Source of the DNA: a virus
DNA length: 24,186 nt
Virus record (IMG/VR): IMGVR_UViG_3300012954_004168
Span: 1-24,186 of that record
Direction: 5' to 3' (one strand)
The notes under the pieces were generated by a model, which saw nothing but the letters and a program-made list of their open reading frames with translations, made no database searches and had not been told where the DNA came from. This document shows positions 7,812 through 24,186 of the stretch, one piece after another (positions within the stretch are counted from its first letter, which is position 1; each line of letters begins with the position of its first letter). The translations under genes were made by a program, and so were the position numbers.

Positions 7812-7837
7812 AATTTACTAGTAAATTGGAGCAACAA

Positions 7838-9465: not shown

Positions 9466-9701
9466 AAGAAGGAGCGCTGGTCATACTAGAACCTTCAATT
9501 GATACGAAAGTAAGAATCCAGGATCCTGAAGTTGGACATTTATTGGATGTGCATCTTTGTGGTGAACCAATAGTTGGTGTCATCACTAAATTATGGGGAT
9601 CAGGAATGGGAATTCGTGAATTTGAACTTTTTAGCTCCGGAGAATTTCTATTAATAACAACAAATAACGGATTATCAGAACTAGAGGTGTTATCATGTTA
9701 A
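9420..9701 (+). CDS. Small beta-rich protein (93 aa)
   Basis: A 93-residue protein with AAGGGAG upstream of the ATG. It overlaps the preceding gene by 46 nt and the following one by 7 nt. Residues 15-93 are predicted to be all-beta (EGALVILEP, PIVGVITKLWGSGMGIREFELFSSGEFLLITTNNGLSELEVL). The pattern is like the neighbouring barrel at 9250, though the sequences are not clearly related. No catalytic motif is visible. The long overlap with the preceding frame is unusual, but both have sensible ribosome sites. Confidence 0.6.
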   Translation: MGENKLDSASQQRRIEEGALVILEPSIDTKVRIQDPEVGHLLDVHLCGEPIVGVITKLWGSGMGIREFELFSSGEFLLITTNNGLSELEVLSC

Positions 9702-10324: not shown

Positions 10325-10328
10325 ATCG

Positions 10329-10357
10329 TCTCTCATACTTAATAAAGTGGTGGGAGA
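10329..10357 (+). promoter_or_regulatory. RNA hairpin that could hide the ribosome site of the gene at 10364
   Basis: TCTCTCATACTT (10329-10340) can pair with AAGTGGTGGGAGA (10345-10357), giving twelve pairs with one bulged G and a four-base AATA loop. The 3' arm contains GGGAG (10352-10356), the ribosome site for the frame starting at 10364. No T run follows, so a terminator is unlikely. Confidence 0.5.
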
Positions 10358-10363
10358 AAAACA

Positions 10364-10561
10364 ATTGACTGTAAAGATTATCAAAGACCAGAGATAGGTG
10401 ACCTAGTCTGGGTAATGGAAGGTATTAGGCACGAACTAGGAATAGTTGTTGCTGTAGACGGCTCTGTTTGGCATAAACATATCCAGGATTGGAGTTATTA
10501 TATTCTTATGCCAAACAATAAGATCATTAAAAAAAGGGGATGGCGTGTCGAACGTGTCTAG
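10364..10561 (+). CDS. Small SH3-like protein (65 aa) with apparent ATT start
   Basis: A 65-residue frame in the gap between the aldolase gene and the gene at 10545. In this frame there is no ATG, GTG or TTG between the upstream stop (10342-10344) and the start of the domain. The ATT at 10364 has GGGAG exactly seven bases before it. The product, starting IDCKDYQRPEIGDLVWVM, resembles the next protein (VDIKECKVGDVCWMF): both have a CK, then (I/V)GD(L/V)xW, then GI/GE and a strand. This argues that the frame is real and a tandem relative. It would be a small beta barrel of unknown function. It overlaps the next gene by 17 nt. Confidence 0.58.
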   Translation: MDCKDYQRPEIGDLVWVMEGIRHELGIVVAVDGSVWHKHIQDWSYYILMPNNKIIKKRGWRVERV

Positions 10562-10772
10562 TGTGGATATAAAAGAATGCAAGGTTGGTGACGTTTGTTG
10601 GATGTTTCTAAAACAATTTAGAAGACCGATCTATGGTGAAATAACAGCCATACTCGAATCTGAAAATGCCATTCAGATATTAACAAGTACAGATGGCTTT
10701 AGATTAGCTCCAGCTAGTCATTGTTTCTGGGAAGAAAAAGACGCAAAGGCATTCAAGAAAAAAAATAAATAG
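10545..10772 (+). CDS. Small SH3-like protein (75 aa)
   Basis: A 75-residue protein starting at a GTG with GGGGA five bases upstream; GTGs at 10554 and 10563 are alternatives. The core ECKVGDVCWMFLKQFRRPIYGEITAILE, followed by AIQILTSTDGFRLAPASHCFW, fits a small SH3-like barrel. The N-terminal motif (ECK..GDVCW) is shared with the protein encoded just upstream at 10364, suggesting a tandem duplication. The C-terminus is lysine-rich. Its stop codon lies directly before the -35 box of the helicase promoter, so it closes this gene run. Function unknown. Confidence 0.68.
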   Translation: MSNVSSVDIKECKVGDVCWMFLKQFRRPIYGEITAILESENAIQILTSTDGFRLAPASHCFWEEKDAKAFKKKNK

Positions 10773-10801
10773 TTGTAAAAATATAGTTTTTCCCTTATAA
10801 T
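10773..10801 (+). promoter_or_regulatory. Sigma-70-like promoter for helicase operon
   Basis: TTGTAA (10773-10778), a 17-nt spacer, then TATAAT (10796-10801). CCCT precedes the -10 box, as in the promoters at 412 and 2969. The helicase ATG is 15 nt downstream with AGGGAGG between. Confidence 0.72.
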
Positions 10802-10816
10802 AAGAAGGGAGGAACT

Positions 10817-12394
10817 ATGATCAACTACATAAATAATTTTCCATACGAAAAGATAAGAAAAGAACAGACCTCGGCAATCGATTTTTCCTTAGAGGAATTT
10901 AAAACAAAAAGGTTTGTTGTTGTCGAGGCCGGTACAGGCGTTGGTAAATCTGCAATTGGTTTAACGATTGCGAAGACTATGGCCGAAAGCGCTTACTTTA
11001 TTACCACTCAAAAGATTTTGCAGCATCAGTATATTGATGACTTTTCGCAGCACGGAATGCTTTCCTTAAAATCTTCAACTAATTTTAGATGTAAGTTCTA
11101 TAAAGGCAAAGACTGCTCACAAGCTTTGCGCGAGTTAAAAGTATCCCAAAACAAAGCTTTTAAATCTTGTTGTGGCGGTGGATGCGTATACAAGGTTGCA
11201 AAAAGAAAGTTTATAGAAGGTTCTTTAGGAATTACAAATTTTGCATATTTTATGGCAGAAACAAATTATTCTCAACAACTAGAGCCACGAGATCTTTTGG
11301 TTGTTGATGAAGCACACAATATCGAAACACAATTATCGAGCTTTGTAGAAGTTGCCATTACGGAAAATTTTGCAAAAAAAGTTTTAAAGCTTGCAGTGCC
11401 AGACAACCTTACCACAATTAAAAGAGTTGTTGATTGGACGAAATCTGTTTACTATCCAAAACTAGTACGTATGCGTACTCACATGGAACAGCAGATAGAA
11501 AAGTTTAGCCTTAAGTCTAAGATGAATGAATTTATTACTCTATCAAAAAGATTCGAATTAATTGACAAACATGAATGTAAGGTTGCAAGGTTTTTAAAAG
11601 AATATGATAAAGACAATTGGGTAATGAATATTTCAAACACGGATGTTACTAATGACCGTAGGTTTGAATTTAAGCCGATTGATGTGGCACCTTTTGCAGA
11701 AGATTATTTATTTAAGTCTGGCAAAAAGATTTTAATGATGTCTGCAACCATCATCAACAAAGACGCGTTCTGCGAAGTGCTCGGTATACCAAAGAGTGAA
11801 TGTGCTTTTATTTCAATACCGTCACCATTTCCTATTAAAAACAGGCCTATCTTTGTTAGTCCGATTGGTTCAATGTCTATGAAAAACATCGATCGTTCTT
11901 TGCCTAAGCTTGCACAAGCAGTAAAAGCTATTCTTGCAGAACACAAAAATGAAAAAGGTATTATACATTGCCATTCATACAAGGTTGCAAATTACCTTAA
12001 AAGAAATATAAGAAGTACCAGACTACTAAGTCATGATTCTTCAAACAGGGACAAGGTTTTATTTGATCACATGAATGGAAAAAAACCAACCGTATTATTA
12101 TCTCCTTCAATGACCGAAGGAGTTGATCTTAAAGGTGATGCAAGCAGATTCCAGATAATCTGTAAAGTCCCTTATCCTTATCTCGGAGATAAACTAATTC
12201 GTAAGAGAATGAACAAGTGGAGTTGGTGGTATCCTTTACAAACGTTGAAAGTTATCATACAATCCGTTGGTCGATCCGTAAGATCAAGTGATGATACTGC
12301 AATCACGTATATACTAGATAGTGACTGGGAGAGATTCTACAGCCGTAATAGCAATTTGTTTCCAGACGACTTCCGCAATTCAATTCTTAGGTAG
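10817..12394 (+). CDS. DinG/XPD-type superfamily 2 DNA helicase with Fe-S cysteines
   Basis: A 525-residue 5'-3' helicase of the Rad3/XPD/DinG group, expected to unwind DNA during repair or replication. Walker A is EAGTGVGKS (37-45) and the DEAH box is at 164-167. Between them are Cys92, Cys100, Cys118/119 and Cys123, placed like the iron-sulfur cluster ligands of this family. The second RecA domain includes MSAT, a late HCHSYKVANYL strand, the TEGVDLKG motif and motif VI QSVGRSVRS (482-490). The protein is shorter than bacterial DinG (about 700 residues) and has no exonuclease domain. AGGGAGG (10806-10812) precedes the ATG. It is the first gene after a consensus promoter. The assignment is secure. 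Confidence 0.94.
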   Translation: MINYINNFPYEKIRKEQTSAIDFSLEEFKTKRFVVVEAGTGVGKSAIGLTIAKTMAESAYFITTQKILQHQYIDDFSQHGMLSLKSSTNFRCKFYKGKDCSQALRELKVSQNKAFKSCCGGGCVYKVAKRKFIEGSLGITNFAYFMAETNYSQQLEPRDLLVVDEAHNIETQLSSFVEVAITENFAKKVLKLAVPDNLTTIKRVVDWTKSVYYPKLVRMRTHMEQQIEKFSLKSKMNEFITLSKRFELIDKHECKVARFLKEYDKDNWVMNISNTDVTNDRRFEFKPIDVAPFAEDYLFKSGKKILMMSATIINKDAFCEVLGIPKSECAFISIPSPFPIKNRPIFVSPIGSMSMKNIDRSLPKLAQAVKAILAEHKNEKGIIHCHSYKVANYLKRNIRSTRLLSHDSSNRDKVLFDHMNGKKPTVLLSPSMTEGVDLKGDASRFQIICKVPYPYLGDKLIRKRMNKWSWWYPLQTLKVIIQSVGRSVRSSDDTAITYILDSDWERFYSRNSNLFPDDFRNSILR

Positions 12395-12401
12395 GTGATA
12401 T

Positions 12402-12746
12402 ATGGTTCGTATTTTATTAGGGGCTTTGTTATTTTCTATTGCGCAGATCTTAGCATGGTTTCAAAGCAATTCTGGCATCCTTGGTGGAAAGCTTGCAGAG
12501 AATTTTTTATGGATTGCACTAGTCTTTGGTCCGATCGTAAGCGTTCTATTTGCTTATGGTACAAAGATAATGTATGCAGAAATAGATTCGCTTTGGGCAA
12601 TTAGGTTTCTAACATTTGGAATAGGGTACTTGGTTTTTATTCCATTAACATGGCATTTTTTAGGAGAAGAGATTTTTACCTTAAAAAACATTTTATCATT
12701 TTGTTTATGTCTTACATTAATCACGATACAATTCATAATGAAATAG
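12402..12746 (+). CDS. Four-helix membrane protein, DMT/EmrE-like size
   Basis: A 114-residue integral membrane protein. Four hydrophobic helices are apparent, near residues 2-20, 35-54, 66-84 and 92-112, with short loops. Size and topology resemble small multidrug-resistance/DMT proteins such as EmrE. However, the Glu in the first helix that is essential for EmrE transport is absent; helix 1 has Gln instead (FSIAQILAW). The start follows GGTAGGTG, seven bases after the helicase stop. The role is unknown. A holin is conceivable from size, but four helices and the position beside a helicase do not favour it. Confidence 0.72.
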   Translation: MVRILLGALLFSIAQILAWFQSNSGILGGKLAENFLWIALVFGPIVSVLFAYGTKIMYAEIDSLWAIRFLTFGIGYLVFIPLTWHFLGEEIFTLKNILSFCLCLTLITIQFIMK

Positions 12747-12761
12747 TAACTAGGAGAATTT

Positions 12762-13313
12762 ATGGCTATAGCACAGAGCATAACGTCACTCAGGCAATTT
12801 TTTACTGAGCGAAGCAATCAAAGACCAATTTATATGACATCAGGAGGGTTTGATCCATTACATGTTGGCCACGTAAGGTGCATTGAAGGTACTGTTACGA
12901 GAGCATCGAATCCAGACATTCACCCATGGCAAATGAAAGGACTAGTAGTAGTTGTCGTCAATGCAGACTCTTTTCTTGTTAGGAAGAAGGGCTATGCATT
13001 TATGCCGCTTGAAGAAAGAATGGAAATTATAGACTCCATAGCAGGAGTTGATTATGTTGTACCTTGGGAGACAGATGGTGATCAAACAGTTTGTGGGGCT
13101 ATTGAGATTTTAAGGCCAAGCTACTTTACAAAAGGAGGCGATAGATTCGATGCATCGACGATACCGGAATGGGATATCTGCCAAAAAATCAACTGTGAAA
13201 TTATTACAGGTGTTGGAAAAGGTGGAAAAATACAGAGCTCTTCAGAACTTATTTCAAGAGCAAAAGACTTTGAACTCTTGGGAGGATACACTGATGAATT
13301 TACCAAAGAATAA
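12762..13313 (+). CDS. Nucleotidyltransferase of the cytidylyltransferase/HldE-C family
   Basis: A 183-residue enzyme that should activate a sugar or alcohol phosphate with CTP or ATP. The signature GGFDPLHVGH (28-37) contains the HxGH catalytic motif. The second signature region, FTKGGDR, and the SSS motif near residue 158 (KIQSSSELI, where the family usually has ISSTxIR) are also present. It resembles the nucleotidyltransferase domain of HldE (heptose) and TagD-type cytidylyltransferases. TAGGAG precedes the ATG. Its end overlaps the next gene by 20 nt. The neighbouring HAD and isomerase-type genes suggest a shared sugar-nucleotide pathway. The substrate cannot be decided from sequence. Confidence 0.88.
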   Translation: MAIAQSITSLRQFFTERSNQRPIYMTSGGFDPLHVGHVRCIEGTVTRASNPDIHPWQMKGLVVVVVNADSFLVRKKGYAFMPLEERMEIIDSIAGVDYVVPWETDGDQTVCGAIEILRPSYFTKGGDRFDASTIPEWDICQKINCEIITGVGKGGKIQSSSELISRAKDFELLGGYTDEFTKE

Positions 13314-13830
13314 ACACGTACACATTTTTGACTTTGATGAAACCCTATGCAAAACAAATGCAGAAATTAAGATTGTAGATACAGAACAAGAAATTACAAT
13401 GATGATGCATCCAACTAATTACCCTGAATGGAGAGCAGAGGGATGGGTTGAAAGATATCCAGGCAGATATGAAATGGACTTCAGTAATTTTCAAGGTTAC
13501 CCAATGTACGGAACTCCAATAAATGGAACAGTCACACTGTTGAAAGTACTGCTTACTTCAGAAGAAGACTTATGCGTATTGGTCACAGGTCGGGATGAAC
13601 TGTCTGGTCCAAGAGCATGGCTTCTTAACAATAATGTCGATGCTGATAAAATGATCTTGATGTGTTCAGGCGATCCAAATAAAAGAATGTGTTACGAATC
13701 AGTCATTAACACATTACAACCAAAACAGATAACCTTGTATGAAGACACGGAACTCTATATAGAACAATGTACCGAGATCTGTAAAAAATATGAAGTTCCT
13801 TTTACATATAAACTAATATACGAAAAATAA
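13294..13830 (+). CDS. HAD-superfamily hydrolase, paralogue of the protein at 792
   Basis: A 178-residue HAD-fold protein. The frame is open upstream to 13150, but that part overlaps the nucleotidyltransferase gene. The ATG at 13294 has GGGAGG (13280-13285) eight bases upstream. Motif I is FDFDETL with Asp13 and Asp15. A motif II-like Thr lies in VLVTGRDEL, and an acidic pair appears in TLYEDTELY. Shared order and spacing with the protein at 792, including the DFSNF segment, point to paralogy. Position beside a nucleotidyltransferase and a mannose-6-phosphate isomerase-type cupin suggests a sugar-phosphate phosphatase role. This is inferred. Confidence 0.84.
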   Translation: MNLPKNKHVHIFDFDETLCKTNAEIKIVDTEQEITMMMHPTNYPEWRAEGWVERYPGRYEMDFSNFQGYPMYGTPINGTVTLLKVLLTSEEDLCVLVTGRDELSGPRAWLLNNNVDADKMILMCSGDPNKRMCYESVINTLQPKQITLYEDTELYIEQCTEICKKYEVPFTYKLIYEK

Positions 13831-13844
13831 TTGGAGATTTTTTA

Positions 13845-14189
13845 ATGCGAATTGTAGAAAAGCCTTGGGGCCACGAAAAAATTTGGGCAGAAACAAGCAA
13901 GTATGTTGGCAAAATTTTAACGATTGATACCGGACACCGACTCAGTCTACAATACCATGAGATCAAAGAAGAAACAATCATGGTGCTCACAGGTACTTTA
14001 AGAATCTGGGTCAGTGATTCAGATAGAGATTTCTTCGACTTGACTCAAGGTGAAGTCTATCATGTCAGGCCAAAACAAATACACAGGTTTGGAGCAACAA
14101 GCTTTGGGCCTGTTTCTATTATTGAGGTAAGCAGTCCAGAAATTGATGACGTTGTAAGATTATCAGACGATTATAAACGTGACGCATAA
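13845..14189 (+). CDS. Mannose-6-phosphate isomerase type II-like cupin
   Basis: A 114-residue single-domain cupin that matches the C-terminal isomerase domain of bifunctional GDP-mannose pyrophosphorylase/phosphomannose isomerases. The protein begins with EKPWGHEKIW, the characteristic KPWG motif. The cupin core follows: YHEIKEET supplies metal ligands, and QIHRFGA holds the conserved His near residue 79 and the adjacent Arg. It would interconvert fructose 6-phosphate and mannose 6-phosphate. With the phosphomannomutase at 7838 it would supply mannose 1-phosphate. The start follows TTGGAG at 13831-13836. As stand-alone domains also act on other sugars, the exact substrate is less certain than the fold. 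Confidence 0.86.
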   Translation: MRIVEKPWGHEKIWAETSKYVGKILTIDTGHRLSLQYHEIKEETIMVLTGTLRIWVSDSDRDFFDLTQGEVYHVRPKQIHRFGATSFGPVSIIEVSSPEIDDVVRLSDDYKRDA

Positions 14190-14223
14190 TTATTAATCGT
14201 AACCTGCTGATAGGAGCCAGAAA

Positions 14224-14973
14224 ATGAAAAACAAGAATCCTAAGATAAGGCTAAAAGAAAGCAAATTGCGAAGAATCATAAGGAAAACCCTAAAAGAAAA
14301 CATGAAGTTTTCGCAGCTTCCAGGATATGCAAAAAATACAGAAATGGACATATATGATTATTTTCCCGATAACAAAGCGTTACGAGACGAAGTGTTTGAA
14401 CTTATTGACGATACGTACTTTTATATGGGTGGCAATCTAGACATTCGAACTGCAGAAGATCTGGCAGATCCAGGGCAGAACGATTATGTTATTTTTAAGG
14501 GATGGGATATCGATAATGATCCTGAACCTGACGTTGTTCGAGGAATGAAACCAAAGGCTGGAAAAATTAAATTATCTTTGTCTGCGACTGATGGCAGTGA
14601 AGCAGCAACAAACTACTCTATCGCAGATACAAGTGCGCGATTGGCTGCAGGTGGCCACTATGCTGAAATGAGTGGAAAAGCCGCTACTGTTCAAATGAAA
14701 GCAAGTGTTCCTGCTTTTACAGATGAGAGTGCCGTGATCGGTCTACTTCCAGGCAAAAACATTACTTGGTTTGGAGAACATCCATACTTTTATACAGGTT
14801 CGGATCCTTCAAAACAAGCGATTGCCGAAAAATTTAAAGATCGAGGATCACAGATTGAGGCAGAAAAGTCAAAAGAATACGGCCCGAAAGGACAGTATGA
14901 TGGCTGGTATGTAAGACAACTAGGCGGTGGTGAGAACGCGAAGATAAAAGCGAAACTAATGTTTGGAAAATAA
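14224..14973 (+). CDS. Hypothetical protein with basic tag helix (249 aa)
   Basis: A 249-residue protein of unknown function. Residues 8-25, IRLKESKLRRIIRKTLKE, resemble the N-terminal tag of the protein at 101 (shared pattern I-x-x-x-K-x-x-L-R-x-I-I). The rest is a separate domain, with an acidic first part (PDNKALRDEVFELIDDTYFYMGG) and a mid-section KIKLSLSATDGSEAA. The end, GQYDGWYVRQLGGG, looks like a conserved strand-turn. No catalytic motif was identified; a GNAT-like fold was considered but the acetyl-CoA loop is not evident. TAGGAG precedes the ATG. The stop is one base before the next start codon. Confidence 0.72.
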   Translation: MKNKNPKIRLKESKLRRIIRKTLKENMKFSQLPGYAKNTEMDIYDYFPDNKALRDEVFELIDDTYFYMGGNLDIRTAEDLADPGQNDYVIFKGWDIDNDPEPDVVRGMKPKAGKIKLSLSATDGSEAATNYSIADTSARLAAGGHYAEMSGKAATVQMKASVPAFTDESAVIGLLPGKNITWFGEHPYFYTGSDPSKQAIAEKFKDRGSQIEAEKSKEYGPKGQYDGWYVRQLGGGENAKIKAKLMFGK

Positions 14974-14974
14974 A

Positions 14975-15388
14975 ATGGCAGGATCTGGCTTTGTTGTGTT
15001 TCGTAGATTTAGTGATGGGATTAAATTTCTCGGTCTCGTAGGTCCTGATTTTCATCGTGAAAGATGCAAAGGAACATACGATATTCCTAAGGGTACCATA
15101 GATTTAGGAGAGACTCCTTATCAAACAGCGGTGCGTGAGTGTAGCGAAGAAGCCGGTTATAACATCGCCAACAATAATGTTCACGCTGGTCCCTATAAGG
15201 ATGGTTTGCTTACTATATGGTTAGCAGAGGTATATACTGATCCTGTGCTTATAGCAAATCCTGAAAACGGAATCATTGAACACGAAGGATTTAAGTGGCT
15301 GGATCCAGAATTATTATTAACAGATTGCTATGATTATTTAAGGCCAAGTATTAGTTGGGCCATGGAGAAAATTAATGACATCACTTAA
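14975..15388 (+). CDS. NUDIX hydrolase, Ap4A-hydrolase-like
   Basis: A 137-residue nucleoside-diphosphate-linked hydrolase. The complete Nudix box GTIDLGETPYQTAVRECSEEAGY lies at residues 40-62 and matches G-x5-E-x7-R-E-U-x-E-E-x-G-U in every position; the glutamates bind magnesium. The start MAGSGFVVFRR and the KGTYDIPKG segment are like those of Ap4A (bis-nucleosyl tetraphosphate) hydrolases. A TTG at 14963 is in frame, but it overlaps the preceding gene; the ATG at 14975 is preferred although its ribosome site (TGGA) is weak. Its last 14 nt overlap the next gene. Substrates could include alarmones such as Ap4A or mRNA caps. Confidence 0.92.
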   Translation: MAGSGFVVFRRFSDGIKFLGLVGPDFHRERCKGTYDIPKGTIDLGETPYQTAVRECSEEAGYNIANNNVHAGPYKDGLLTIWLAEVYTDPVLIANPENGIIEHEGFKWLDPELLLTDCYDYLRPSISWAMEKINDIT

Positions 15389-15755
15389 AGAAGGTTTTAA
15401 AAGCGGCTTTGTAATTACCAATAGTAAAATCCCACAATTGTTATCTTGGGTTATTCAAATCCGCGCGATAACTCTGTATCCATTTATTATCTTTAGAGAC
15501 GAAGCAGACGAGGTTACAATCAACCACGAGCGCATCCATATCGCACAGCAGAAAGAGTTGTTTGTGATTCCATTCTATATTCTCTATGTTTGGTACTGGT
15601 TAGTTAACCGTATTAAATATTATGATTTAGGCCCTGATGCTTACTACAATCTTCCATTCGAGCGCGAGGCATACAGGTGGGATAACGACTTTACTTACTT
15701 AGAAAATAGACCAGCTTACGCCTGGAGGAAATATTTCCATCCCAGAGTCTATTAA
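15375..15755 (+). CDS. Small HExxH protein, putative metallopeptidase with membrane segment
   Basis: A 126-residue protein with the zinc motif HERIH (51-55). A hydrophobic helix (LFVIPFYILYVWYWLV, about 62-77) follows, then an EREAY segment (96-100) that could give the third zinc ligand. This order (HExxH, hydrophobic helix, downstream Glu) is that of small gluzincin-like proteins. The gene overlaps the NUDIX gene by 14 nt, so it is coupled. It closes the operon that begins at the helicase. Family membership rests on the motif alone; whether it is an active protease is open. Confidence 0.6.
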   Translation: MTSLKEGFKSGFVITNSKIPQLLSWVIQIRAITLYPFIIFRDEADEVTINHERIHIAQQKELFVIPFYILYVWYWLVNRIKYYDLGPDAYYNLPFEREAYRWDNDFTYLENRPAYAWRKYFHPRVY

Positions 15756-15774
15756 CAAAAATTAATTTGCCCAT

Positions 15775-15803
15775 ATTATACTAATAAAAGGTTTTGCTAT
15801 AAT
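15775..15803 (+). promoter_or_regulatory. Putative promoter for the YeaH-SpoVR-PrkA operon
   Basis: ATTATA (15775-15780), a 17-nt spacer, then TATAAT (15798-15803). The -10 is good and the -35 is poor. It falls in the 69-bp gap before the YeaH gene. Confidence 0.45.
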
Positions 15804-15824: not shown

Positions 15825-17000
15825 ATGGGCAGCGTGTTTAGTCACCACAATACAAACGCAGATAGGTCAGCCGGCGATCGTCGCCGACATAAACAAAAGA
15901 TTGAAAAGGCTATCCGAGAAGGCATTCACGACATAGTTGCCGAAGAAAGCATTATTGGTCAAAATGGCAAGAAAAAGATCCGCATTCCTGTTAAGGGAAT
16001 TAAAGAGTATAAATTTGTCTACGGTAACAACAAGCAAAAAGCTGGTGCCGGCGGAGACGCAGATATTCAAAAAGGAAAAAAATATGCCAAAGGATCTAAA
16101 AAGAAAAAGAAGGGTGACGGTCAGAAAGCCGGCAATAAAAAAGGTGAAGAGTTCTATGAAGTTGAAGTGACTTTAGAGGAACTAACAGAATACCTCTTCA
16201 AAGATTTAAATCTGCCAGAGCTTGAAAAAAAGCAGATGCGCGAAATCATGTCGGCCAAATTTCGAAGAAAAGGTTATCGAAACGAAGGTATTAGGCCAAG
16301 ATTATCTAAGAAAGAAACAGCAAAAAGAAGAATAAAAAGAAAAAAGGCTGCCGAAAGAGCCGGTACTTACGATCCAGAATCAGACGAAAACTTTTCGTTT
16401 ATTGAAAATGACCTAAGATACAAACACATAAAGCTAGACACAAAATACGCGACAAACGCATGCATATTTTTTGTAATGGATGTGTCTGGATCTATGAGTA
16501 CAAGTAAGAAATATCTTGCTAGATCTTTTTTCTTTCTTCTATATCACTTTATTAGAAGCAAATATGAAAAAACTGAAATAGTATTTGTTTCGCACGATAC
16601 TCAACCGTACGAAGTAGAGGAAGATAAGTTTTTTAACCGTGGTAGCTCAGGCGGAACGCTTGTTTCCCCCGCATTGAATTACGTAATAGAGCAGGCAGAG
16701 AAAAGATATAACCCAAAATCTTGGAACATTTATACTTTTCATTGTTCCGATGGTGACAATTGGCTTTCGGACATGGATGCAACAGTTGAAGCAAGTAATA
16801 AATTAAAAGATATGTGTCAACTATACGGTTACTGCCAAATCGAACCAGCCCTTGATGATATTAAGTGGGTTTCAGATCATACAAACACTCTTGCTGGTGT
16901 TCTTGAATGGATGACCGATGATGAATTTAAAATTGTTAAGATTACAAAAAAAGATGACGTTTGGAATGCATTTAAATCTTTCTTTGGAGGTCAACTATGA
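15825..17000 (+). CDS. yeaH: YeaH/YhbH-family protein (DUF444) with VWA domain
   Basis: A 391-residue member of the DUF444 family, encoded in bacteria beside the PrkA kinase and SpoVR. The N-terminus, SAGDRRRHKQKIEKAIREGIHDIVAEESI, is the family signature (compare DRR...R.K..I..AI). A lysine-rich low-complexity spacer (about 70-110) replaces the usual glycine-rich region. The C-terminal VWA domain starts at ACIFFVMDVSGSM with MIDAS residues DVSGS (219-223), and includes SSGGTLVSPAL and the HCSDGDNW strand. A TTG at 15810 is in frame, but the ATG at 15825 is correctly spaced from ACGGAGA. The stop overlaps the SpoVR start (ATGA). In enterobacteria and Bacillus the trio responds to stress or starvation; its biochemical role is poorly known. 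Confidence 0.94.
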   Translation: MGSVFSHHNTNADRSAGDRRRHKQKIEKAIREGIHDIVAEESIIGQNGKKKIRIPVKGIKEYKFVYGNNKQKAGAGGDADIQKGKKYAKGSKKKKKGDGQKAGNKKGEEFYEVEVTLEELTEYLFKDLNLPELEKKQMREIMSAKFRRKGYRNEGIRPRLSKKETAKRRIKRKKAAERAGTYDPESDENFSFIENDLRYKHIKLDTKYATNACIFFVMDVSGSMSTSKKYLARSFFFLLYHFIRSKYEKTEIVFVSHDTQPYEVEEDKFFNRGSSGGTLVSPALNYVIEQAEKRYNPKSWNIYTFHCSDGDNWLSDMDATVEASNKLKDMCQLYGYCQIEPALDDIKWVSDHTNTLAGVLEWMTDDEFKIVKITKKDDVWNAFKSFFGGQL

Positions 17001-18307
17001 GTGACTGGTCTTTGCACGACTTACAAGAATGGGATGACAAAATTTGTGACTTAGCAAAAAAGCACAATTTAGACTGGTATCCTATTACATACGAAACTTG
17101 TGACTATTTTGAAATGATAGGTAACATGGCTTATCATGGCATGCCTACTCATTACGGACACTGGTCTTATGGTAAATCTTTTGAAGTACAACACCAAAGA
17201 TATCAGCTAGGAATGACCGGACTTCCTTATGAACTTATTATCAATTCTAATCCGTGCATTAGCTATTTGATGAAAGAGAATCCTTTGTATTTACAGATTC
17301 TTATTATGGCCCACTGTGTCGGCCACAGCGACTTCTTTAAAAACAATCGTACGTTTGGATATACTAGAGCCGACACGGTTGTACCTAGGATGAGAAACGC
17401 AAAAAAAAGGATTCAATCTTATATTGAAGATCCAAGCATTGGGATTGCAAAAGTAGAAAAACTAATCGATGCTGCACACGCACTTAGTTATCAAGTACCT
17501 AGATTGCCACACGACATAAGAGATATTAGAGAAGAAAGAGTGGCGTGGCAAAAAAATAATAAAGCTGCTTTAGATAACGGTGACATTACAGAAAGACGTT
17601 TTAATCAATTGCCTATCGAAGCTGAGTATGATATACTAGGGTTTATAAATGCTTACGCAAGAGGTCTCAAAGATTGGGAAAAAGACATTATTGAAATAGT
17701 TCGTGATGAAGCCCACTATTTTATGCCGCAGATTAGAACAAAAATTATGAATGAAGGATGGGCTTGTTTTTGGCACTTTAAGATTTTAAACGAACTTGAG
17801 TTGCCTCAAAAATACCATATCCCTTTCTTGAAGTCTCACAACCAGGTTGTTAGACCACATATCGCGAACATTAATCCTTACCACATTGGGTTTCATCTTT
17901 TTAATAAAATTTACGAACGCCATGGAATTGATGAGTGTTTTATTGCCAGGGAAGTTCATAACGATGAATCATTTCTTAGACAATATCTGACTAGAGAAGA
18001 CTGCGAAGAATTAAATTTATTTTCCTATTCTGATAGTGATGATATGATAGAAATAGATGAGGTGTCTGATGAAGATGGTTGGAAGCAAGTGAAGCAAACT
18101 TTACTACAGCAAATTGGTGCAAACTCTATCCCAGTTATTTACGTTGACTTTGTAGAAGATGACACCTTGATACTATACCACGAGCACGACGGTGTCCGAG
18201 ACTTAGAAATCAACCATGCAGAAAAGGTTGTAAAACATACAAGGGCTCTGTGGAAAAACGATGTTAAACTTATAACCATGGTAGACAATGCACCATTTGA
18301 AATTTAG
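16997..18307 (+). CDS. spoVR: SpoVR family protein (YcgB-like)
   Basis: A 436-residue member of the SpoVR family, named for a Bacillus protein needed for spore cortex formation and widespread in non-sporulating bacteria next to PrkA and YeaH. The family core is easy to recognise: THYGHWSYGKSFEVQ (51-65), LPYELIINSNPCISYLM (76-92) and HCVGHSDFFKNN (106-117), and later EGWACFWHF and NPYHIGF. The C-terminal part (from about 345) is more acidic and variable, ending with a domain that may be separate (SIPVIYVDFVEDDTLILYHEHDG). Length is slightly below the usual 470-510 residues. It overlaps YeaH by 4 nt and precedes prkA by 12 nt. The biochemical function is not established. Confidence 0.95.
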   Translation: MSDWSLHDLQEWDDKICDLAKKHNLDWYPITYETCDYFEMIGNMAYHGMPTHYGHWSYGKSFEVQHQRYQLGMTGLPYELIINSNPCISYLMKENPLYLQILIMAHCVGHSDFFKNNRTFGYTRADTVVPRMRNAKKRIQSYIEDPSIGIAKVEKLIDAAHALSYQVPRLPHDIRDIREERVAWQKNNKAALDNGDITERRFNQLPIEAEYDILGFINAYARGLKDWEKDIIEIVRDEAHYFMPQIRTKIMNEGWACFWHFKILNELELPQKYHIPFLKSHNQVVRPHIANINPYHIGFHLFNKIYERHGIDECFIAREVHNDESFLRQYLTREDCEELNLFSYSDSDDMIEIDEVSDEDGWKQVKQTLLQQIGANSIPVIYVDFVEDDTLILYHEHDGVRDLEINHAEKVVKHTRALWKNDVKLITMVDNAPFEI

Positions 18308-18319
18308 GAGAAAAACACA

Positions 18320-20248
18320 ATGAATAAAAAAGATTTCCTTAAGCTGATTAACCAACAGCGCGGACAGAAAAAAGATGAGAAATTCAGCGGTACGCTAATT
18401 GACTATGTAGAACTAGTACAAAATGACCCGAGCATTTCTAAGCTTTCTCATAGACGTCTTTACGATGCAATCGTCGATGCCGGTGTTCAAGAAATGTCAG
18501 CAGATAACCCTAGAAAAAGAAAGATTTTCAACGGTGATTCAATTAAGGTTTATGACTATTTCAAAGATGAATTTTTTGGGATGGAAAACGTCATTGAAAA
18601 GTTGATGAGGTTTTTAAAAGGTGCAGCGCTTCGTGGCGAGGAATCACGCCAGGTTCTTCTTTTAATGGGTCCGGTTGGTGCTGGTAAATCTGCATTAACG
18701 GAACACATCAAAAGCGCTCTGGACGGTTTAAAATACTACCATCTTGAAGGAGACCCTCAAAGAGGAGAACCACTTCAGCTTATACCTCGATCCCTAAGAC
18801 AAGATTTTGAAAAGGCTCTCGGAGTAAAAATTGAAGGAGACTTATCTCCCGTTGCTAGATACACGTTGTTGGAGGAGTATGATGGTAAATATGAAAATTT
18901 TAAGGTTGTGGAATCTACATTCTCACAACGTGGTCGTAGGGGAATTGCTTCTGTGCCTCCTATGGATGCTAACTCACAAGACGTTTCAGTTCTAATTGGA
19001 TCTGAAGATATTTCAAAACTAGACAAGTATTCTGAGGATGATCCTCGTGTTTTAAATCTGACTGGTGCTTTTAACATTGGTAACCGCGGTATTGTAGAGC
19101 TTATCGAAGTATTCAAAAACGAAATTGAGTTTTTGCATACAATTATTACTGCAACCCAAGAAAAGCGTGTTCCTTCACCAGGCAAACATGACATGTTATT
19201 CTTTGACGGTGTAATACTTGCACACTGCAATGAGTCTGAGTGGAACAGGTTTAAATCAGAGCATACAAACGAGGCTATTCTCGACCGCGTTGTAAAAATA
19301 AACGTACCATATATTTTAGAGCTTGACCAAGAATGTAGAATCTATGAAAAAATACTTTCTAGATCTGATTTTGATGCACATATTGCACCACATACAATTA
19401 AAGTTGCTTCGATGTTTTCTGTCATGAGCCGTCTAAAACCATCGCAAAAGTGTGATCTTCTCACTAAGATGAAAATTTACAACGGCGAAGAAGTAATCGA
19501 AAAGGGCAGAGTAAAAGCAATTGACGTGAACGATCTTAGAGAAGAACATCGTGAAGAAGGAATGACCGGTATCTCTACTCGATTTATTATGAAATCAATT
19601 GACTATGCTTTGTGTGACTCAGACAAGGGTTGTGTAACTCCAATCGGTGTCATAAAGTCAATAACAAAAATGGTTAAAGAACAAATTGTTGATAATGACT
19701 TTAGGGAAAGATGTTTAGAATTAATTCAGCAAACGATTAGGGAAGAGTATCTTAGAATTCTTGAAACAGAAATTGCAAAGGCTTTTATTACAGCGTACGA
19801 AGAACAGGCACAAGCACTTTTTGACACGTATCTAGACAATGCAGAGGCGTATACAACAAAATCAAAAATGAAGGACTCCATAACAAAAGAAGAAAGGGCT
19901 CCTGACGAAAAGTTTATGAAGTCTATTGAAGAAGTTATTGGCATTACAGGTTCTGCAAAACAAGGTTTTAGATCTGACGTAACTGCATATATGTTTGCAA
20001 AGCTCAGAAGAAAAGAAAGAGTAGACTACACCTGTTATGAACCCCTTAAAGAAGCAATCGAATCTTACCTAATTAATTCTGTAAAGGATATGGCCAGAAT
20101 CGTTACTAAATCTAAGACCAGAGACGACGAGCAACAAAAAAAGTATTCTGATATGATACAAACCCTTATGGACGATTATGGTTATAATGAAGAATCCGCT
20201 GAAGAGATTCTTACTTACGCCTCAAATAATCTGTGGAGAGACAGTTGA
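18320..20248 (+). CDS. prkA: PrkA/YeaG-family AAA+ serine protein kinase
   Basis: A 642-residue PrkA protein: an AAA+ ATPase domain with a C-terminal kinase-like region, reported to phosphorylate protein substrates and, in Bacillus, suggested to act in proteolysis. Walker A is GPVGAGKS (117-124). A typical PrkA stretch follows (GDPQRGEPLQLIPRSLR). The Walker B-like MLFFDG (292-297) and the AHCNESEW segment are intact, as are TGAFNIGNRGIVE and the GISTRFIMKSID motif. The start is ATG with GGAG upstream. It is 12 nt after spoVR and overlaps the next gene as TTGA. Length is close to the bacterial norm. All landmarks are preserved, so it should be functional. Confidence 0.95.
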   Translation: MNKKDFLKLINQQRGQKKDEKFSGTLIDYVELVQNDPSISKLSHRRLYDAIVDAGVQEMSADNPRKRKIFNGDSIKVYDYFKDEFFGMENVIEKLMRFLKGAALRGEESRQVLLLMGPVGAGKSALTEHIKSALDGLKYYHLEGDPQRGEPLQLIPRSLRQDFEKALGVKIEGDLSPVARYTLLEEYDGKYENFKVVESTFSQRGRRGIASVPPMDANSQDVSVLIGSEDISKLDKYSEDDPRVLNLTGAFNIGNRGIVELIEVFKNEIEFLHTIITATQEKRVPSPGKHDMLFFDGVILAHCNESEWNRFKSEHTNEAILDRVVKINVPYILELDQECRIYEKILSRSDFDAHIAPHTIKVASMFSVMSRLKPSQKCDLLTKMKIYNGEEVIEKGRVKAIDVNDLREEHREEGMTGISTRFIMKSIDYALCDSDKGCVTPIGVIKSITKMVKEQIVDNDFRERCLELIQQTIREEYLRILETEIAKAFITAYEEQAQALFDTYLDNAEAYTTKSKMKDSITKEERAPDEKFMKSIEEVIGITGSAKQGFRSDVTAYMFAKLRRKERVDYTCYEPLKEAIESYLINSVKDMARIVTKSKTRDDEQQKKYSDMIQTLMDDYGYNEESAEEILTYASNNLWRDS

Positions 20249-20502
20249 AAATAACTTTTGGAACGTCTGAAATATTAATCATTGGATCGGTAGCAATTCA
20301 CAATTTTGCATTCTGGTATTCAATATCTCTTTTGGTGCTTGGCATTTTTGGGAAATTTTGTGCCTATGCTATTGAGTTGCAACAGAAAAAAGAGTCGGCA
20401 GAAAATGCGTCTGAAATAACGCAAAATCTTGTCGACACTATATCTAACGCGATCGCACTGAGCGGCATCGTTGGCAGCAGAGAAAAAAATGGGTTTCACT
20501 GA
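20245..20502 (+). CDS. Small membrane protein (85 aa)
   Basis: An 85-residue protein with one or two membrane helices near residues 9-42 (ILIIGSVAIHNFAFWYSISLLVLGIFGKFCAYAI), followed by a polar helix (ELQQKKESAENASEITQNLVDTISNAI). The TTG at 20245 overlaps the prkA stop (TTGA) with GGAGAG five bases upstream; the GTG at 20233 is in frame but closer to the ribosome site. It ends 14 nt inside the next gene. It could tether the PrkA group to the membrane, but this rests on gene order only. Confidence 0.66.
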   Translation: MKITFGTSEILIIGSVAIHNFAFWYSISLLVLGIFGKFCAYAIELQQKKESAENASEITQNLVDTISNAIALSGIVGSREKNGFH

Positions 20503-21691
20503 CATAGTTGAACCTGATCAAGTTAGGTTAGATTTTGTTAGGTGCTGTGATTTTTTTGTAAAGACAGATAAATTTATAGTTGGCAATGCAATCAAGACAA
20601 ACCAGTTATGGAACATTCCTTCAATTGTAAAAGACATTGTGCCGAACGAGGCAAACAGAGCAATTCTTGAAAATGTTTTTCAAAACATTTGTAACTACGA
20701 AAAAACTTACAGCGGAATCGGGTATTTTTTTCTAAATTTAGTTATAAAAAATTATGAATACGAGAGAAGCAAAAAATTTCGACTGTCGTCATCCGTAATA
20801 TTAAGCCATGTTTCAAAAAACATCAGGTGTAATTATACGGACGTTGTTTTAAAAAACGTTCGTAAACACGGCAACCCACAGTTGTCTATATCAGTTACAA
20901 GAGAACCACTTTTAAAACCAATTATTAAATTCAAAAGCAATCCTAGCGTTAGACTTCGGGTTTGCCCAGAGTTTACGCAGGTTCGTGGCAACTTTAAAAA
21001 TTGTAAGTTCTTCATGGTTAATGGAGCAGTTTCTAAGCCGTCTGAAATTATGAAGCTATTGAATGCTAGTTTTGAGTCGAAGGAAACTACTTATTTTTTG
21101 CTTTGCAGATCCTTCAATAGCGACGTTGTTTTTACTTTAAAAGAGAATTTTGATAGAGGTATAACAAATGTTATACCAATCGAATTTGGTTTCGATCTAG
21201 ACTCAGTTAACAGCATTGCTGATTTGGTAAGCGTTGTAGGTGGTCTGCCAATGTCTTCAGATCTAGGTGATATACTGTCTGCGTATGACGACGATCGGCT
21301 TGGGATTTCCGACTCTGTCACGATTCAAGAAAATCTATTTACGATTACACCTTCAAAAGATCCGTCGAACCAAATTAAAAAACTTTACGAAAAGATAGAT
21401 CAATCTGAAGATGAAAAAAGAAAGCTGCTTGCAAAACGATTAATTTGTTTAAAAGGTAACTCGTGCGAAGTTAAACTTCCTAATTCAGAAGATTGGAACG
21501 AAGTTGAAATAAACGTACGTCATGCGGTTAAGATATTCGGTGATATGACTAAAAAAGGAGCGGTTGCCATGACAACTGGCAACAATAAATTTTATATTCC
21601 TGCACATAGCGATACAATCATAACAAAGCTAATCGATGATGTAGAAAATCTTTTAGCCACAAAATTATATCTACCAAGGAGAGAAAAATGA
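20489..21691 (+). CDS. Divergent, truncated GroEL-like chaperonin
   Basis: A 400-residue protein that appears to be a very divergent type I chaperonin. By eye, residues 117-138 (VVLKNVRKHGNPQLSISVTRE) align with the GroEL intermediate segment before the apical domain. Residues 172-263 align with the apical domain (FFMVNGAVSKPSEIMKLL to VVGGLPMSSDLGDIL). Residues 271-330 follow GroEL through VTIQENLFTITP and KRKLLAKRLICLKG, and 340-364 align with the second intermediate segment (VEINVRHAVKIFGDMTKKGAV). The ATP-site GDGTTT is replaced by SGIGYF (75-80), the catalytic Asp398 position is His345, and about 130 C-terminal residues are absent. The protein would lack ATPase activity. The ATG at 20489 is used; a TTG at 20471 is also in frame. 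Confidence 0.62.
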   Translation: MGFTDIVEPDQVRLDFVRCCDFFVKTDKFIVGNAIKTNQLWNIPSIVKDIVPNEANRAILENVFQNICNYEKTYSGIGYFFLNLVIKNYEYERSKKFRLSSSVILSHVSKNIRCNYTDVVLKNVRKHGNPQLSISVTREPLLKPIIKFKSNPSVRLRVCPEFTQVRGNFKNCKFFMVNGAVSKPSEIMKLLNASFESKETTYFLLCRSFNSDVVFTLKENFDRGITNVIPIEFGFDLDSVNSIADLVSVVGGLPMSSDLGDILSAYDDDRLGISDSVTIQENLFTITPSKDPSNQIKKLYEKIDQSEDEKRKLLAKRLICLKGNSCEVKLPNSEDWNEVEINVRHAVKIFGDMTKKGAVAMTTGNNKFYIPAHSDTIITKLIDDVENLLATKLYLPRREK

Positions 21692-21879
21692 GTAAAGGAC
21701 TCAATAAACAAGAGCTTTTAGATCTCATGCAGTTTGTCTGCGATCAAAACAAAACAAATCTTTTTGAAATTCTAAAAAAGACGGATGCTGAAGTAGGTGA
21801 ACGAGACATTAGGGCAATCCTTAATGTTCTTGAAGAGACCACAAAAGGATGTTTCTTTCGTTTTATTGAAAAGTTATAA
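21688..21879 (+). CDS. Small hypothetical protein (63 aa)
   Basis: A 63-residue protein starting with an ATGA overlap on the previous stop and an AGGAGAG ribosome site inside the GroEL-like gene. It is predicted to be helical (KQELLDLMQFVCDQN, NLFEILKKTDAEVG, IRAILNVLEETTKG), with a C-terminal aromatic run (CFFRFIEKL). No family is recognised. Its stop shares one base with the next ATG. The tight overlap with the chaperonin-like gene suggests matched expression. Confidence 0.64.
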   Translation: MSKGLNKQELLDLMQFVCDQNKTNLFEILKKTDAEVGERDIRAILNVLEETTKGCFFRFIEKL

Positions 21880-22340
21880 TGAAAAAGGGGATCAAGCACA
21901 ATATACAATGTCTGTGTGTTCTGCCCCAGTATAGAAATAAACCTGATGCACCTGCGCATGAGTTTGTGGTTTTTTCTGTTCTTGATGAATCAGACACGCT
22001 AGAAGAAAAGTATGCACAATGCAATAACTGTGGAGTTATTCACAAGATTGTCGATATATGCCGATCTGAGATAGCTACCAATAGAGCAGAAATTACGGTA
22101 CTGTCAAAAGAAGATATCAAGATGATGCTTCCTAGCCCTGTAGTTACTACTCTTGAAAACTATAATTGTGACACCCCTAGTTGGGAGCATGCGCAATTTA
22201 TCTTACAGGAAAGGCAGTGGGAACAGTTTATAGTGCTTGAAAAAAATGTAATTGACGAAGGATTCGAAGGAAAACTTTTAAGGTTTAAAGGCGATAACAA
22301 ATATGCTATTGAACCGTTTATAGATAGGAGAGCGTTTTGA
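21879..22340 (+). CDS. Zinc-ribbon-like hypothetical protein (153 aa)
   Basis: A 153-residue protein with an N-terminal CLC (residues 11-13) and a later CNNCG at about 48-52, which together could form a zinc ribbon. The central and C-terminal parts are mixed (ICRSEIATNRAEITVLSKEDI, SWEHAQFILQERQWEQFIVLEKNVID). The ending, GKLLRFKGDNKYAIEPF, looks like a beta hairpin. It starts at an ATG sharing one base with the previous stop and no Shine-Dalgarno sequence is clear, so it is probably translated by re-initiation. I recall similar proteins in large marine phages, with no known function. The zinc site is inferred. Confidence 0.68.
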   Translation: MKKGIKHNIQCLCVLPQYRNKPDAPAHEFVVFSVLDESDTLEEKYAQCNNCGVIHKIVDICRSEIATNRAEITVLSKEDIKMMLPSPVVTTLENYNCDTPSWEHAQFILQERQWEQFIVLEKNVIDEGFEGKLLRFKGDNKYAIEPFIDRRAF

Positions 22341-22561
22341 GTGAAAAAGATAAATTAAACATTGATGAAAATGAACAAAATAGATTACTTGGTAATGCTG
22401 CAGCTAGGGAAATCGTACAAGAAATTATGAACTTTGGTGTGTCACAGCAGCAAATTTTGCACATTATTAATTTACTTGCTTTAGAATTAGAGGATAATAA
22501 CATGATGAGAAAAATAAATAATCTCATAAATTCAAATAAAACGGAGAAGCTACATGTCTAA
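22337..22561 (+). CDS. Small hypothetical protein (74 aa)
   Basis: A 74-residue helical protein starting at a TTG that overlaps the preceding stop (TTGA), with AGGAGAG (22326-22332) upstream. It is acidic in the first 20 residues (DKLNIDENEQNRLLGNAAAREIVQEIM) and then has NFGVSQQQILHIINLLALELED, which has the look of a small helical bundle. The C-terminus is basic. It overlaps the next gene by 8 nt. No family is recognised. Confidence 0.62.
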   Translation: MSEKDKLNIDENEQNRLLGNAAAREIVQEIMNFGVSQQQILHIINLLALELEDNNMMRKINNLINSNKTEKLHV

Positions 22562-22751
22562 TATTGCTGATAAATGGGCCGAGATTAAGGTCCTAATTGA
22601 ATCTATCGACCTAGATGTACATAAGAATGCCGGAGGAAATGCTTCAGCTGGTGTTCGTGCACGTAAGGGTCTAAGACTATTAAAAAAGGAAGCTGCAGAT
22701 CTTGTCAAGATGACAGTCGAGGCAGACAAGGCAAGAAAAACAGAGAAATAA
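22554..22751 (+). CDS. Histone H1-like DNA-binding peptide (Hc1 type)
   Basis: A 65-residue basic protein. The segment HKNAGGNASAGVRARKGLRL is followed by LKKEAADLVK, a pattern like that of the bacterial histone H1-like (Hc1) family, which binds DNA. The first helix (KWAEIKVLIESIDLDV) and the C-terminal helix (MTVEADKARKTEK) fit a compact helical hairpin. It starts at an ATG with GGAG nine bases upstream and is the last gene of the operon, just before a strong terminator. It could bind phage or host DNA and affect packing or transcription. Length is short for the family, and the call relies on the conserved pattern. Confidence 0.7.
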   Translation: MSNIADKWAEIKVLIESIDLDVHKNAGGNASAGVRARKGLRLLKKEAADLVKMTVEADKARKTEK

Positions 22752-22774
22752 TTATTTGTCTGTTGCAAAGATAC

Positions 22775-22802
22775 AAAAGGGTTCATGAAGAACCCTTTTT
22801 TT
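22775..22802 (+). terminator. Rho-independent terminator, possibly bidirectional
   Basis: A perfect 10-bp stem, AAAAGGGTTC (22775-22784) with GAACCCTTTT (22790-22799), has loop ATGAA and is followed by a run of Ts (to 22802). On the opposite strand it would end transcription of the gene at 22814-23056, with a shorter T run. Confidence 0.9.
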
Positions 22803-22813: not shown

Positions 22814-23056
22814 CTATGTAATCATATCTCGAATTTTTGAGATAGCATTTTTCTCGATCTGGCATATACGCATGCGAGTAAGCTTAAATAAATCACCAAT
22901 ATTCTGCAAGGTCATCGGGCCTTCTTCGGATGCTATTATTGTACAATTTCGATATTTGCCTGATTTAAACCATGCTCTGCATTTATCATTGGCGCACTTA
23001 AGGTCGTCTTTTTTGCACGTTGCAAAGCAAGTTAAATCACTGTTTTCGTTTTTCAT
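22814..23056 (-). CDS. Small protein with sigma-70 region-4-like helix-turn-helix and cysteine-rich start
   Basis: An 80-residue protein on the minus strand. Residues 48-80, MTLQNIGDLFKLTRMRICQIEK and the following AISKIRDMIT, match the region-4 helix-turn-helix of sigma-70 factors (compare TLQEIG...GVSRERVRQIE..AL.KLR), the part that contacts the -35 element. The N-terminal half has five cysteines (10, 14, 21, 26, 38) that may bind zinc. No region 2 is present, so it cannot be a full sigma factor. It more likely binds promoters or RNA polymerase as a regulator. GGAGG is placed before the ATG. It diverges from the PhoH gene and converges on the operon terminator, so it could control either. 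Confidence 0.85.
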   Translation of the reverse strand: MKNENSDLTCFATCKKDDLKCANDKCRAWFKSGKYRNCTIIASEEGPMTLQNIGDLFKLTRMRICQIEKNAISKIRDMIT

Positions 23057-23119: not shown

Positions 23120-24186
23120 TTGTCTAGAAAAATATTTGTCCTTGATACCAGCGTTCTTTTATACGATAAAAATTCTATTGCAGCCTTTTCAGGCAACGAT
23201 GTCGTCCTTTCTATGCCTGTTCTTGAAGAGTTAGATAGATTTAAAGAAAAGCCGGGAGTCATTGGTGAGGCGGCACGTTATGTAAATCGATTCTTAGATG
23301 AGTTGAGGTTTGCAAAAACAGATGGCGTATGGAAAATCGTCGAAGAAAATGATCTTCGCATAACTTTCGATGTAGAGGCGCTGCAAGTTAATGAAAAAAT
23401 AGAGCTTGACATATCAAGAAACGATAACAAGATTATTGCGTGTGCTGTTCGGCTTCAAAATACCTATCCAGATCGAAAGGTTTCAGTAATCACTAAGGAC
23501 ATTAATCTTCGTGTAAAGTGCGATGCTCTTGGAGTTTGGGCCGAAGATTATTACAAAGATCATATCGCACCAGAGCTTGGGCAATTTAAAGGCGTTGAAA
23601 CGTTTGATATAAATAAAAATTTAGTTGATGAGTTCTATGCGCAAAAACATATAGATATAGATGACTTAAATCTTGAAGATGGAATTGAAATCTACGAAAA
23701 CATGTGCGTTGTAGGAAGAAGTCAATCATCTAGTTTTTTGGCAACGAATAAAAATGGTAAGTTAACGGCACTAAGAAACACTAGTATTCAAAATCCTGCA
23801 ATCGAGCCAAGAAATGCAGAACAAACATTTGCAATCGATGCTCTTTTAGATCCAGAAATTTCGCTTGTTACACTGACCGGTTTGGCAGGTTCCGGAAAAA
23901 CTTTCCTTGCCTTAATGGCAGGACTTTGCCAGACAAACAGAAATGAATTTTCAGAACAACTGGAAAAGCACGGTTTCACTAAGGAAAAAAGAATCATTGT
24001 TACAAGATCTTTGCAACATGTCGGATCTAGAGATTTAGGTTATCTTCCTGGGAATATGCAAGACAAGATGGCACCATGGCTTGCTCCAATAGTAGACAAT
24101 GTCAGGCAGGCATTTAACGATGCATCTGTCTTTGAAACCATGGTTGAATCTGGCCTTATTGAAGTTGCGCCGATACCGTACATACG
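23120..24186 (+). CDS. phoH: PIN-PhoH fusion protein (PhoH2 type), incomplete at window end
   Basis: At least 355 residues of a two-domain protein that runs off the window. The N-terminal PIN ribonuclease domain starts KIFVLDTSVLLYD (Asp9) and continues with MPVLEELDRFKE, SRNDNKIIACA and VITKDINLRVKCDALG, with all the acidic residues expected. The C-terminal PhoH ATPase domain has the Walker A GLAGSGKT (254-261). Such PhoH2 proteins are reported to be RNA-degrading helicases. The start is a TTG with TACGGAG seven bases upstream; no ATG is in frame nearby. The gene diverges from the sigma-like gene by 63 nt. PhoH is common in phages, but the PIN fusion is the less usual form. Confidence 0.92.
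   Translation, partial: MSRKIFVLDTSVLLYDKNSIAAFSGNDVVLSMPVLEELDRFKEKPGVIGEAARYVNRFLDELRFAKTDGVWKIVEENDLRITFDVEALQVNEKIELDISRNDNKIIACAVRLQNTYPDRKVSVITKDINLRVKCDALGVWAEDYYKDHIAPELGQFKGVETFDINKNLVDEFYAQKHIDIDDLNLEDGIEIYENMCVVGRSQSSSFLATNKNGKLTALRNTSIQNPAIEPRNAEQTFAIDALLDPEISLVTLTGLAGSGKTFLALMAGLCQTNRNEFSEQLEKHGFTKEKRIIVTRSLQHVGSRDLGYLPGNMQDKMAPWLAPIVDNVRQAFNDASVFETMVESGLIEVAPIPYI

Follow-up and report, generated by a model that had tools for sequence, protein, structure and literature searches.

Introduction

The PrkA-YeaH-SpoVR system of bacteria, represented by YeaG-YeaH-YcgB of Escherichia coli and PrkA-YhbH-SpoVR of Bacillus, is linked to sporulation and stress, and to our knowledge neither SpoVR nor PrkA has a settled biochemistry. 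The trio is already known from phages. It is carried in the order VWA-SpoVR-PrkA by the Thermus phages phiYS40/TMA, phiLo, MN1 and Lalka8, and the 600-kb uncultured phages LR745206, LR756502, LR756504 and LR756511 also encode the three proteins, in the order PrkA-YeaH-SpoVR where they are linked. Ralstonia phage RsoM2USA likewise has genes annotated as SpoVR and PrkA (PMC8504454). Enterobacter phage LAU1 was rejected as a further trio phage, since its YeaG-YeaH genes lie at the record edge and are probably host flank. Pairs of a MoxR AAA+ ATPase and a vWA protein, described as chaperones with a proposed role in virion assembly, are also found in jumbo phages (Iyer et al. 2021, PMC7824862).

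Here, we describe a viral contig of 24,186 bases (IMG/VR record IMGVR_UViG_3300012954_004168; the whole stretch is hereafter called the window), in which a YeaH-SpoVR-PrkA trio (module A) is followed on the same strand by a second gene set (module B), whose central member is a chaperonin derivative that we designate pseudo-GroEL. Our leading, still tentative, interpretation is that the run consists of two phage protein-handling modules lying head to tail, one of which may hold client proteins while the other may remodel them.

Results and Discussion

Organization of the Locus and Identity of Its Carriers

The run contains the following features, given in positions of the window.

15825 to 17000, + strand: YeaH/YhbH (DUF444), VWA-domain protein with a metal ion-dependent adhesion site (MIDAS) motif, module A (PF04285, 1e-104)
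16997 to 18307, + strand: SpoVR, module A (PF04293, 3e-121; SpoVR_C, 9e-8)
18320 to 20248, + strand: PrkA/YeaG AAA+ ATPase, module A (PF08298, 1e-136; PF06798, 4e-77)
20233 to 20502, + strand: single-transmembrane (single-TM) membrane peptide, frequent but not constant among relatives (maximum hydropathy over 19 residues, 1.81; alignment A6)
20471 to 21691, + strand, start possibly the ATG at 20489: pseudo-GroEL, ATPase-less chaperonin derivative, module B (profile against GroEL of the PDB, 4e-39)
21688 to 21879, + strand: p34, small open reading frame (ORF), assigned by position only, with no sequence match
21879 to 22340, + strand: p35, probable zinc-binding protein, module B (invariant Cys/His; model confidence, pLDDT, 93)
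22337 to 22561, + strand: p36, small conserved protein, module B (54 relatives; alignment A5)
22554 to 22751, + strand: protein with an Hc1 histone H1-like domain, module B (PF07432, 4e-8; 52 relatives)
22775 to 22799, + strand: intrinsic terminator ending the run (10-bp stem and T-run)

The window is only a 24-kb fragment, and its relatives in the searches were likewise contig fragments, collected as the best 80 loci per scan; related contigs were counted separately, although they are not independent of each other. A 288-kb relative syntenic with the window, G001, encodes T4-type terminase, portal, major capsid, sheath and prohead-protease proteins (homologs of gp17, gp18, gp20, gp21 and gp23), as expected of a jumbo myophage. 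The virus record and the structural genes of the relatives rule out a segment of a bacterial chromosome, so that the preliminary description of this DNA was right to treat it as phage. The whole block was also found in three near-identical contigs assigned to bacterial metagenome-assembled genomes (L082, L083 and L084; one of 305 kb), which are probably misbinned phage; their labels, Methylococcaceae, Legionellales and Halobacteriovorax, are mutually contradictory and were not used to assign a host.

Module A Contains the Full PrkA-YeaH-SpoVR Set

As the preliminary description stated, the trio genes are adjacent and their motifs intact. PrkA has its AAA+ and C-terminal domains, the DUF444 protein its MIDAS motif and SpoVR stands adjacent, which together place the trio in the PrkA-YeaH-SpoVR system and match the domain content of the bacterial counterparts. 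The MIDAS motif of YeaH reads DVSGSMS in the window, with D.SGSM in 76/76 relatives, and the Walker A motif of PrkA reads GPVGAGKS and is kept in 76 of 81. The NCBIfam model nearest to YeaH is TIGR02877 (spore_yhbH), at 401 bits, under its cut-off of 468. A relative of PrkA was detected in each of 149 viral contigs, with 68-84% identity for the best 80, and YeaH and SpoVR accompany PrkA in these relatives wherever the contig allows.

In a PrkA tree, the jumbo-phage copies form one clade (100/100) beside a PrkA subfamily of Bacillota, the Thermus-phage copies lie elsewhere, and of the 600-kb phage copies three group with Pseudomonadota and one with Bdellovibrionota; the placement of some long branches is uncertain. 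Identity of the window PrkA to cellular copies is 54-57% for Bacillota, 37% for Bdellovibrionota and 33% for Pseudomonadota. These placements imply that phages captured the trio on at least three separate occasions. Within the jumbo clade, the loci carrying both modules are basal, and the trio-only loci are nested, as a group of ten plus one.

The nearest relatives in Bacillota have the order PrkA-YeaH-SpoVR, whereas the window has YeaH-SpoVR-PrkA, is phage-borne and is linked to module B. The Thermus phages share the gene order of the window, but their PrkA proteins are only about 30-34% identical to that of the window, and module B was not found in the Thermus-phage stretches examined. The MoxR-vWA pairs resemble the trio in joining an AAA+ motor to a VWA partner; the trio differs in its AAA+ family (PrkA) and in a third partner, SpoVR, which is not discussed in PMC7824862. 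Such a pair also lies in the window at 4099-6661, where a MoxR-like ATPase and a DUF2201 metallopeptidase-VWA protein, 75-78% identical to the G001 copies, form a second AAA+-VWA pair.

Module B Is a Conserved Neighbor of the Trio

Module B is composed of a single-TM protein in some loci, pseudo-GroEL, a small ORF, p35, p36 and Hc1. When loci with at least 4.5 kb downstream of PrkA were counted, pseudo-GroEL, p35, p36 and Hc1 directly followed PrkA in 45/61, and none of them was there in 16/61; the neighbors of the trio thus do not vary freely. The pseudo-GroEL relatives were reached through PrkA and p35, as a search with the single pseudo-GroEL sequence gave no viral relative and its alignment has no stretch conserved enough to search with. 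The p35 search yielded 218 viral contigs, and pseudo-GroEL accompanied p35 in all 78 new loci examined.

The preliminary description suggested testing whether the membrane peptide always accompanies the trio, and it does not: a TM-type ORF lies between PrkA and pseudo-GroEL in 31/57 relatives, and no ORF fits there in 20/57. A single-TM protein upstream of pseudo-GroEL nevertheless occurs in both clades. In module-B loci lacking the trio, the gene before pseudo-GroEL usually encodes a coiled-coil protein with a C-terminal TM segment, and these clusters contain a helicase related to that of the window at 10817-12394. Small ORFs of about 70-90 aa occupy the p34 position in many relatives.

Seven residues of p35 (H7, C11, C13, H27, C48, C51 and H55; CxC ... 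CNNC ... H) are invariant in 50 sequences, which suggests a zinc site. A confident model of p35 (pLDDT 93) had no fold match in the PDB at E<=0.001, and comparison of folds gave no function. The histone-like peptide noticed earlier is borne out by an Hc1 match above the Pfam cut-off (PF07432, 33.3 bits against 23.5). It has the N-terminal Hc1 domain but is only 65 aa long, and seems to lack the long basic tail of chlamydial Hc1.

Carriage of the trio directly before module B is frequent among large, uncultured, mostly marine phages, and no cultured relative carrying module B was found. What appears to be new is that the genes of the pseudo-chaperonin module are conserved together and frequently paired with the trio, and not the phage trio itself: neither the conserved module nor the pairing was found in the open-access literature, jumbo-phage papers included, an absence that is weak evidence given this scope. 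At least three captures, together with tight conservation in a large uncultured jumbo-phage group, suggest that the trio is useful inside the infected cell, with a small set of candidate partners.

Transcription of the Run

The preliminary description held that almost every start overlaps the previous stop, which is right except between SpoVR and PrkA, where there is a gap of 12 nt; YeaH and SpoVR overlap by 4 nt. The strong terminator that it placed after the run likewise recurs, as a hairpin with a stem of at least 9 bp followed by a T-run was found after Hc1 in 27/52 relatives, compared with 15 of 1040 random positions (1.4%). The stems differ in sequence, indicating that what is conserved is where the hairpin lies and not its DNA. 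Terminator-like hairpins inside module B, after pseudo-GroEL, p35 and p36, were found in 0, 0 and 2 of 52, and one follows PrkA in 11 of the 16 loci without an adjacent module B. Promoter-like sites in the region were no commoner than expected by chance (25 found, 26.8 expected). The placement of the hairpins supports, but does not prove, transcription of the trio and module B as one unit in most members. The earlier proposal of a single nine-gene transcript is plausible and conserved as judged from the sequences, with the reservation that the run comprises two modules.

Pseudo-GroEL Is a Degenerate Chaperonin under Purifying Selection

Chaperonin profiles alone recognized the ORF following the membrane peptide, and their matches were confined to the intermediate and apical domains. 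An alignment of 51 pseudo-GroELs matched nine true GroELs from related phages in hhalign (99.3%, 1.5e-20), and the pseudo-GroEL profile matched GroELs of the PDB with E=4e-39. The AlphaFold model (pLDDT 90) likewise retrieved GroEL in Foldseek at about 1e-19, with a template-modeling score up to 0.61. Pseudo-GroEL thus has the apical and intermediate fold of Group I chaperonins (GroEL/Cpn60), but lacks a complete equatorial domain, being short by about 80 residues at the C-terminal equatorial end. The motifs GDGTT and GPxGK, present in 9/9 true phage GroELs, occur in 0/51 pseudo-GroELs, the ATPase motif GDGTTT being gone, and GDGTT was also absent from all 78 members of a further set. The GroEL-like protein of the preliminary description is, then, a degenerate chaperonin, homologous over these two domains and not beyond them; having lost the ATPase motifs, it cannot work as a GroEL-type folding machine.

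Conservation is highest in the apical part, with 27% mean pairwise identity compared with 16-17% elsewhere. Residues 193, 196, 197, 219 and 223, in two helices aligning with the client-binding helices of GroEL, are hydrophobic in essentially all sequences, N226 is invariant, and G185 and G266 are nearly so; pseudo-GroELs from loci without the trio retain the same conserved residues. The ratio of nonsynonymous to synonymous substitutions (dN/dS) was 0.13-0.33, and dN was several times (about 5-10) that of PrkA in most pairs, which marks pseudo-GroEL as a working, fast-evolving gene under purifying selection. Between L039 and L077, dS of pseudo-GroEL was 0.40, far under the 0.9-1.4 of its neighbors, which suggests recent recombination of pseudo-GroEL alone.

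A full-length GroEL is encoded elsewhere in the genome in 4/4 records of 230-293 kb that carry the whole block and in 5/7 further records searched; carriers include G001, G002, G003, G008 and G463, among other large records, and most near-complete members have the gene. GroES was not found in 16 virus records searched, and that of the host could serve. Pseudo-GroEL represents a family in which the client-binding half of a chaperonin is kept and its engine discarded, in genomes still encoding a complete chaperonin.

A Proposed Mechanism and the Evidence Weighing against It

The most likely role of the run is protein remodeling or assembly during infection. In the mechanism that we tentatively prefer, PrkA would be the AAA+ ring of module A, with YeaH as a VWA adaptor bearing the MIDAS motif and SpoVR as the third member, and module B would be an old possession of these jumbo myophages, arranged around a chaperonin that is ATPase-dead but retains its client-binding apical domain. 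Tethered to the membrane, pseudo-GroEL might hold or recruit client proteins there without ATP. ATP-driven remodeling would come from the PrkA machine under the guidance of YeaH and SpoVR, and might act on overlapping clients during phage replication or assembly; such a function is suggested by analogy with the MoxR-vWA chaperones. Both modules would be made from one transcript in most of these phages. The sequences show which genes are present, that the modules can be separated, that the ATPase motifs are lost, that selection on pseudo-GroEL is purifying and where the terminator recurs; that pseudo-GroEL binds clients or is tethered to the membrane, that the two modules are physically linked, and when in infection they would act are inferred. 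In Lalka8, the trio lies between a minor head gene and TerL, which favors a role in assembly or packaging.

Several observations weigh against this mechanism. The modules occur apart, so that neither needs the other: the trio was absent upstream of module B in 18 of the 67 loci with enough upstream sequence, whole-record searches found no PrkA anywhere in two module-B records of 340 and 324 kb, and module B lay about 140 kb from the trio in 2 of 4 large trio-only records. Even where the modules are linked, a terminator after PrkA splits them in 7/52 loci. The chemistry of PrkA is disputed, and the protease and kinase activities of Bacillus anthracis PrkA in vitro were negligible (PMC13001217). 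Moreover, in G001 about 80-110 kb separates the trio from the structural genes, and the T4-type late promoter (TATAAATA) was not enriched in G001; giving no information, it was dropped as a clue to timing.

The loci in which module B lacks the trio or lies far from it rule out an obligate nine-gene unit, and with it the obligatory coupling of the trio to the GroEL-like gene proposed earlier. The distant copies also overturned our assumption that module B had been lost from the 16 trio-only loci. Module B thus forms the more widespread core, with the trio in front of many, but not all, members. Since the modules are usually neighbors but can live apart, they look like two protein-handling systems and not one fixed unit.

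Alternative Explanations

One possible alternative, to which we give a modest share of probability, is that the trio is a bacterial-derived auxiliary system for stress or starvation, keeping a nutrient-poor host productive through a long infection, and that its adjacency to module B is accidental co-transcription. The separability of the modules is consistent with this, as are the PhoH and sugar/nucleotide-sugar type genes nearby and the requirement for yeaG in the adaptation of E. coli to sustained nitrogen starvation (PMC4664914). However, Lalka8 keeps all three trio genes within 72 kb, inside its head/packaging cluster, and several captures by unrelated phages are explained at least equally well by a need that phages share.

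We consider rather unlikely a stronger form of the preferred mechanism, namely a two-part viral chaperone, in which membrane-tethered pseudo-GroEL would be the client receptor and the captured trio the motor, the AAA+ ring replacing the lost chaperonin ATPase.

It is unlikely that pseudo-GroEL instead serves as a regulator or decoy, forming mixed rings with, or blocking, the GroEL of the host or the full-length GroEL of the phage itself. The co-occurrence of full-length GroEL would suit such a function, as would the retention of the apical domain and its hydrophobic positions after loss of the ATP site, and evolution faster than that of PrkA might be expected of a conflict interface. The equatorial domain, which makes the ring contacts, is nevertheless the most eroded part, and the lack of GroES in the 16 records also argues against it.

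More doubtful still is a takeover or dormancy function, in which the trio would remodel host proteins to halt growth or pause the phage, and Hc1 would compact DNA. Hc1-like DNA compaction occurs in chlamydiae, the bacterial trio is tied to sporulation and stress, and the phage YeaH is nearest to spore_yhbH; but Hc1 is part of module B, found also in loci without the trio, and no integrase, repressor or lysogeny gene was recognized in the annotation of the window. That pseudo-GroEL is a decaying pseudogene relic, as its large deletions and the mean identity of relatives to the window copy of about 18% could imply, is highly improbable and refuted by the selection result, with the reading frame open in the relatives examined, strict co-occurrence with p35 and the conservation of N226 (invariant), G185 and G266 (both nearly so) pointing the same way.

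Flanking Genes and Other Observations

Three further features adjoin the run.

15752 to 15779, + strand: weak candidate promoter upstream of YeaH, one of the sites found at chance frequency in the region
22814 to 23056, - strand: sigma-70 region-4-like protein, conserved neighbor (PF04545, 2e-8; 49 relatives)
23120 to 24186, + strand: PIN-PhoH ATPase, flanking, running off the contig (PIN_4, 4e-30; PhoH, 2e-18)

Upstream of the trio, positions 7826-15388 contain a eukaryotic-type phosphomannomutase (PF03332), a class II aldolase and, recognized by eye, cytidylyltransferase-, cupin- and Nudix-like genes, and many genes in this part are conserved in relatives. A trypsin-like peptidase with a signal-like N-terminus (7047-7763, - strand) is conserved in about 42/80 relatives. 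PADLOC models gave no specific anti-phage defense match in this DNA; the only matches were weak ones to ATPase portions of PrkA and MoxR and to protease portions of the trypsin-like ORF, which lies outside the run. A reading of the locus as anti-phage defense was rejected on this result. An Hsp20-like ORF, identified by eye at 1453-1911, is a further chaperone-type gene within the same 24 kb. In G001, a transfer-messenger RNA gene with the tag ANNNYFYDSERLAA lies at the contig edge (L086, 3-355), and the contig ends share about 50 bases, so that the genome may be circular or permuted.

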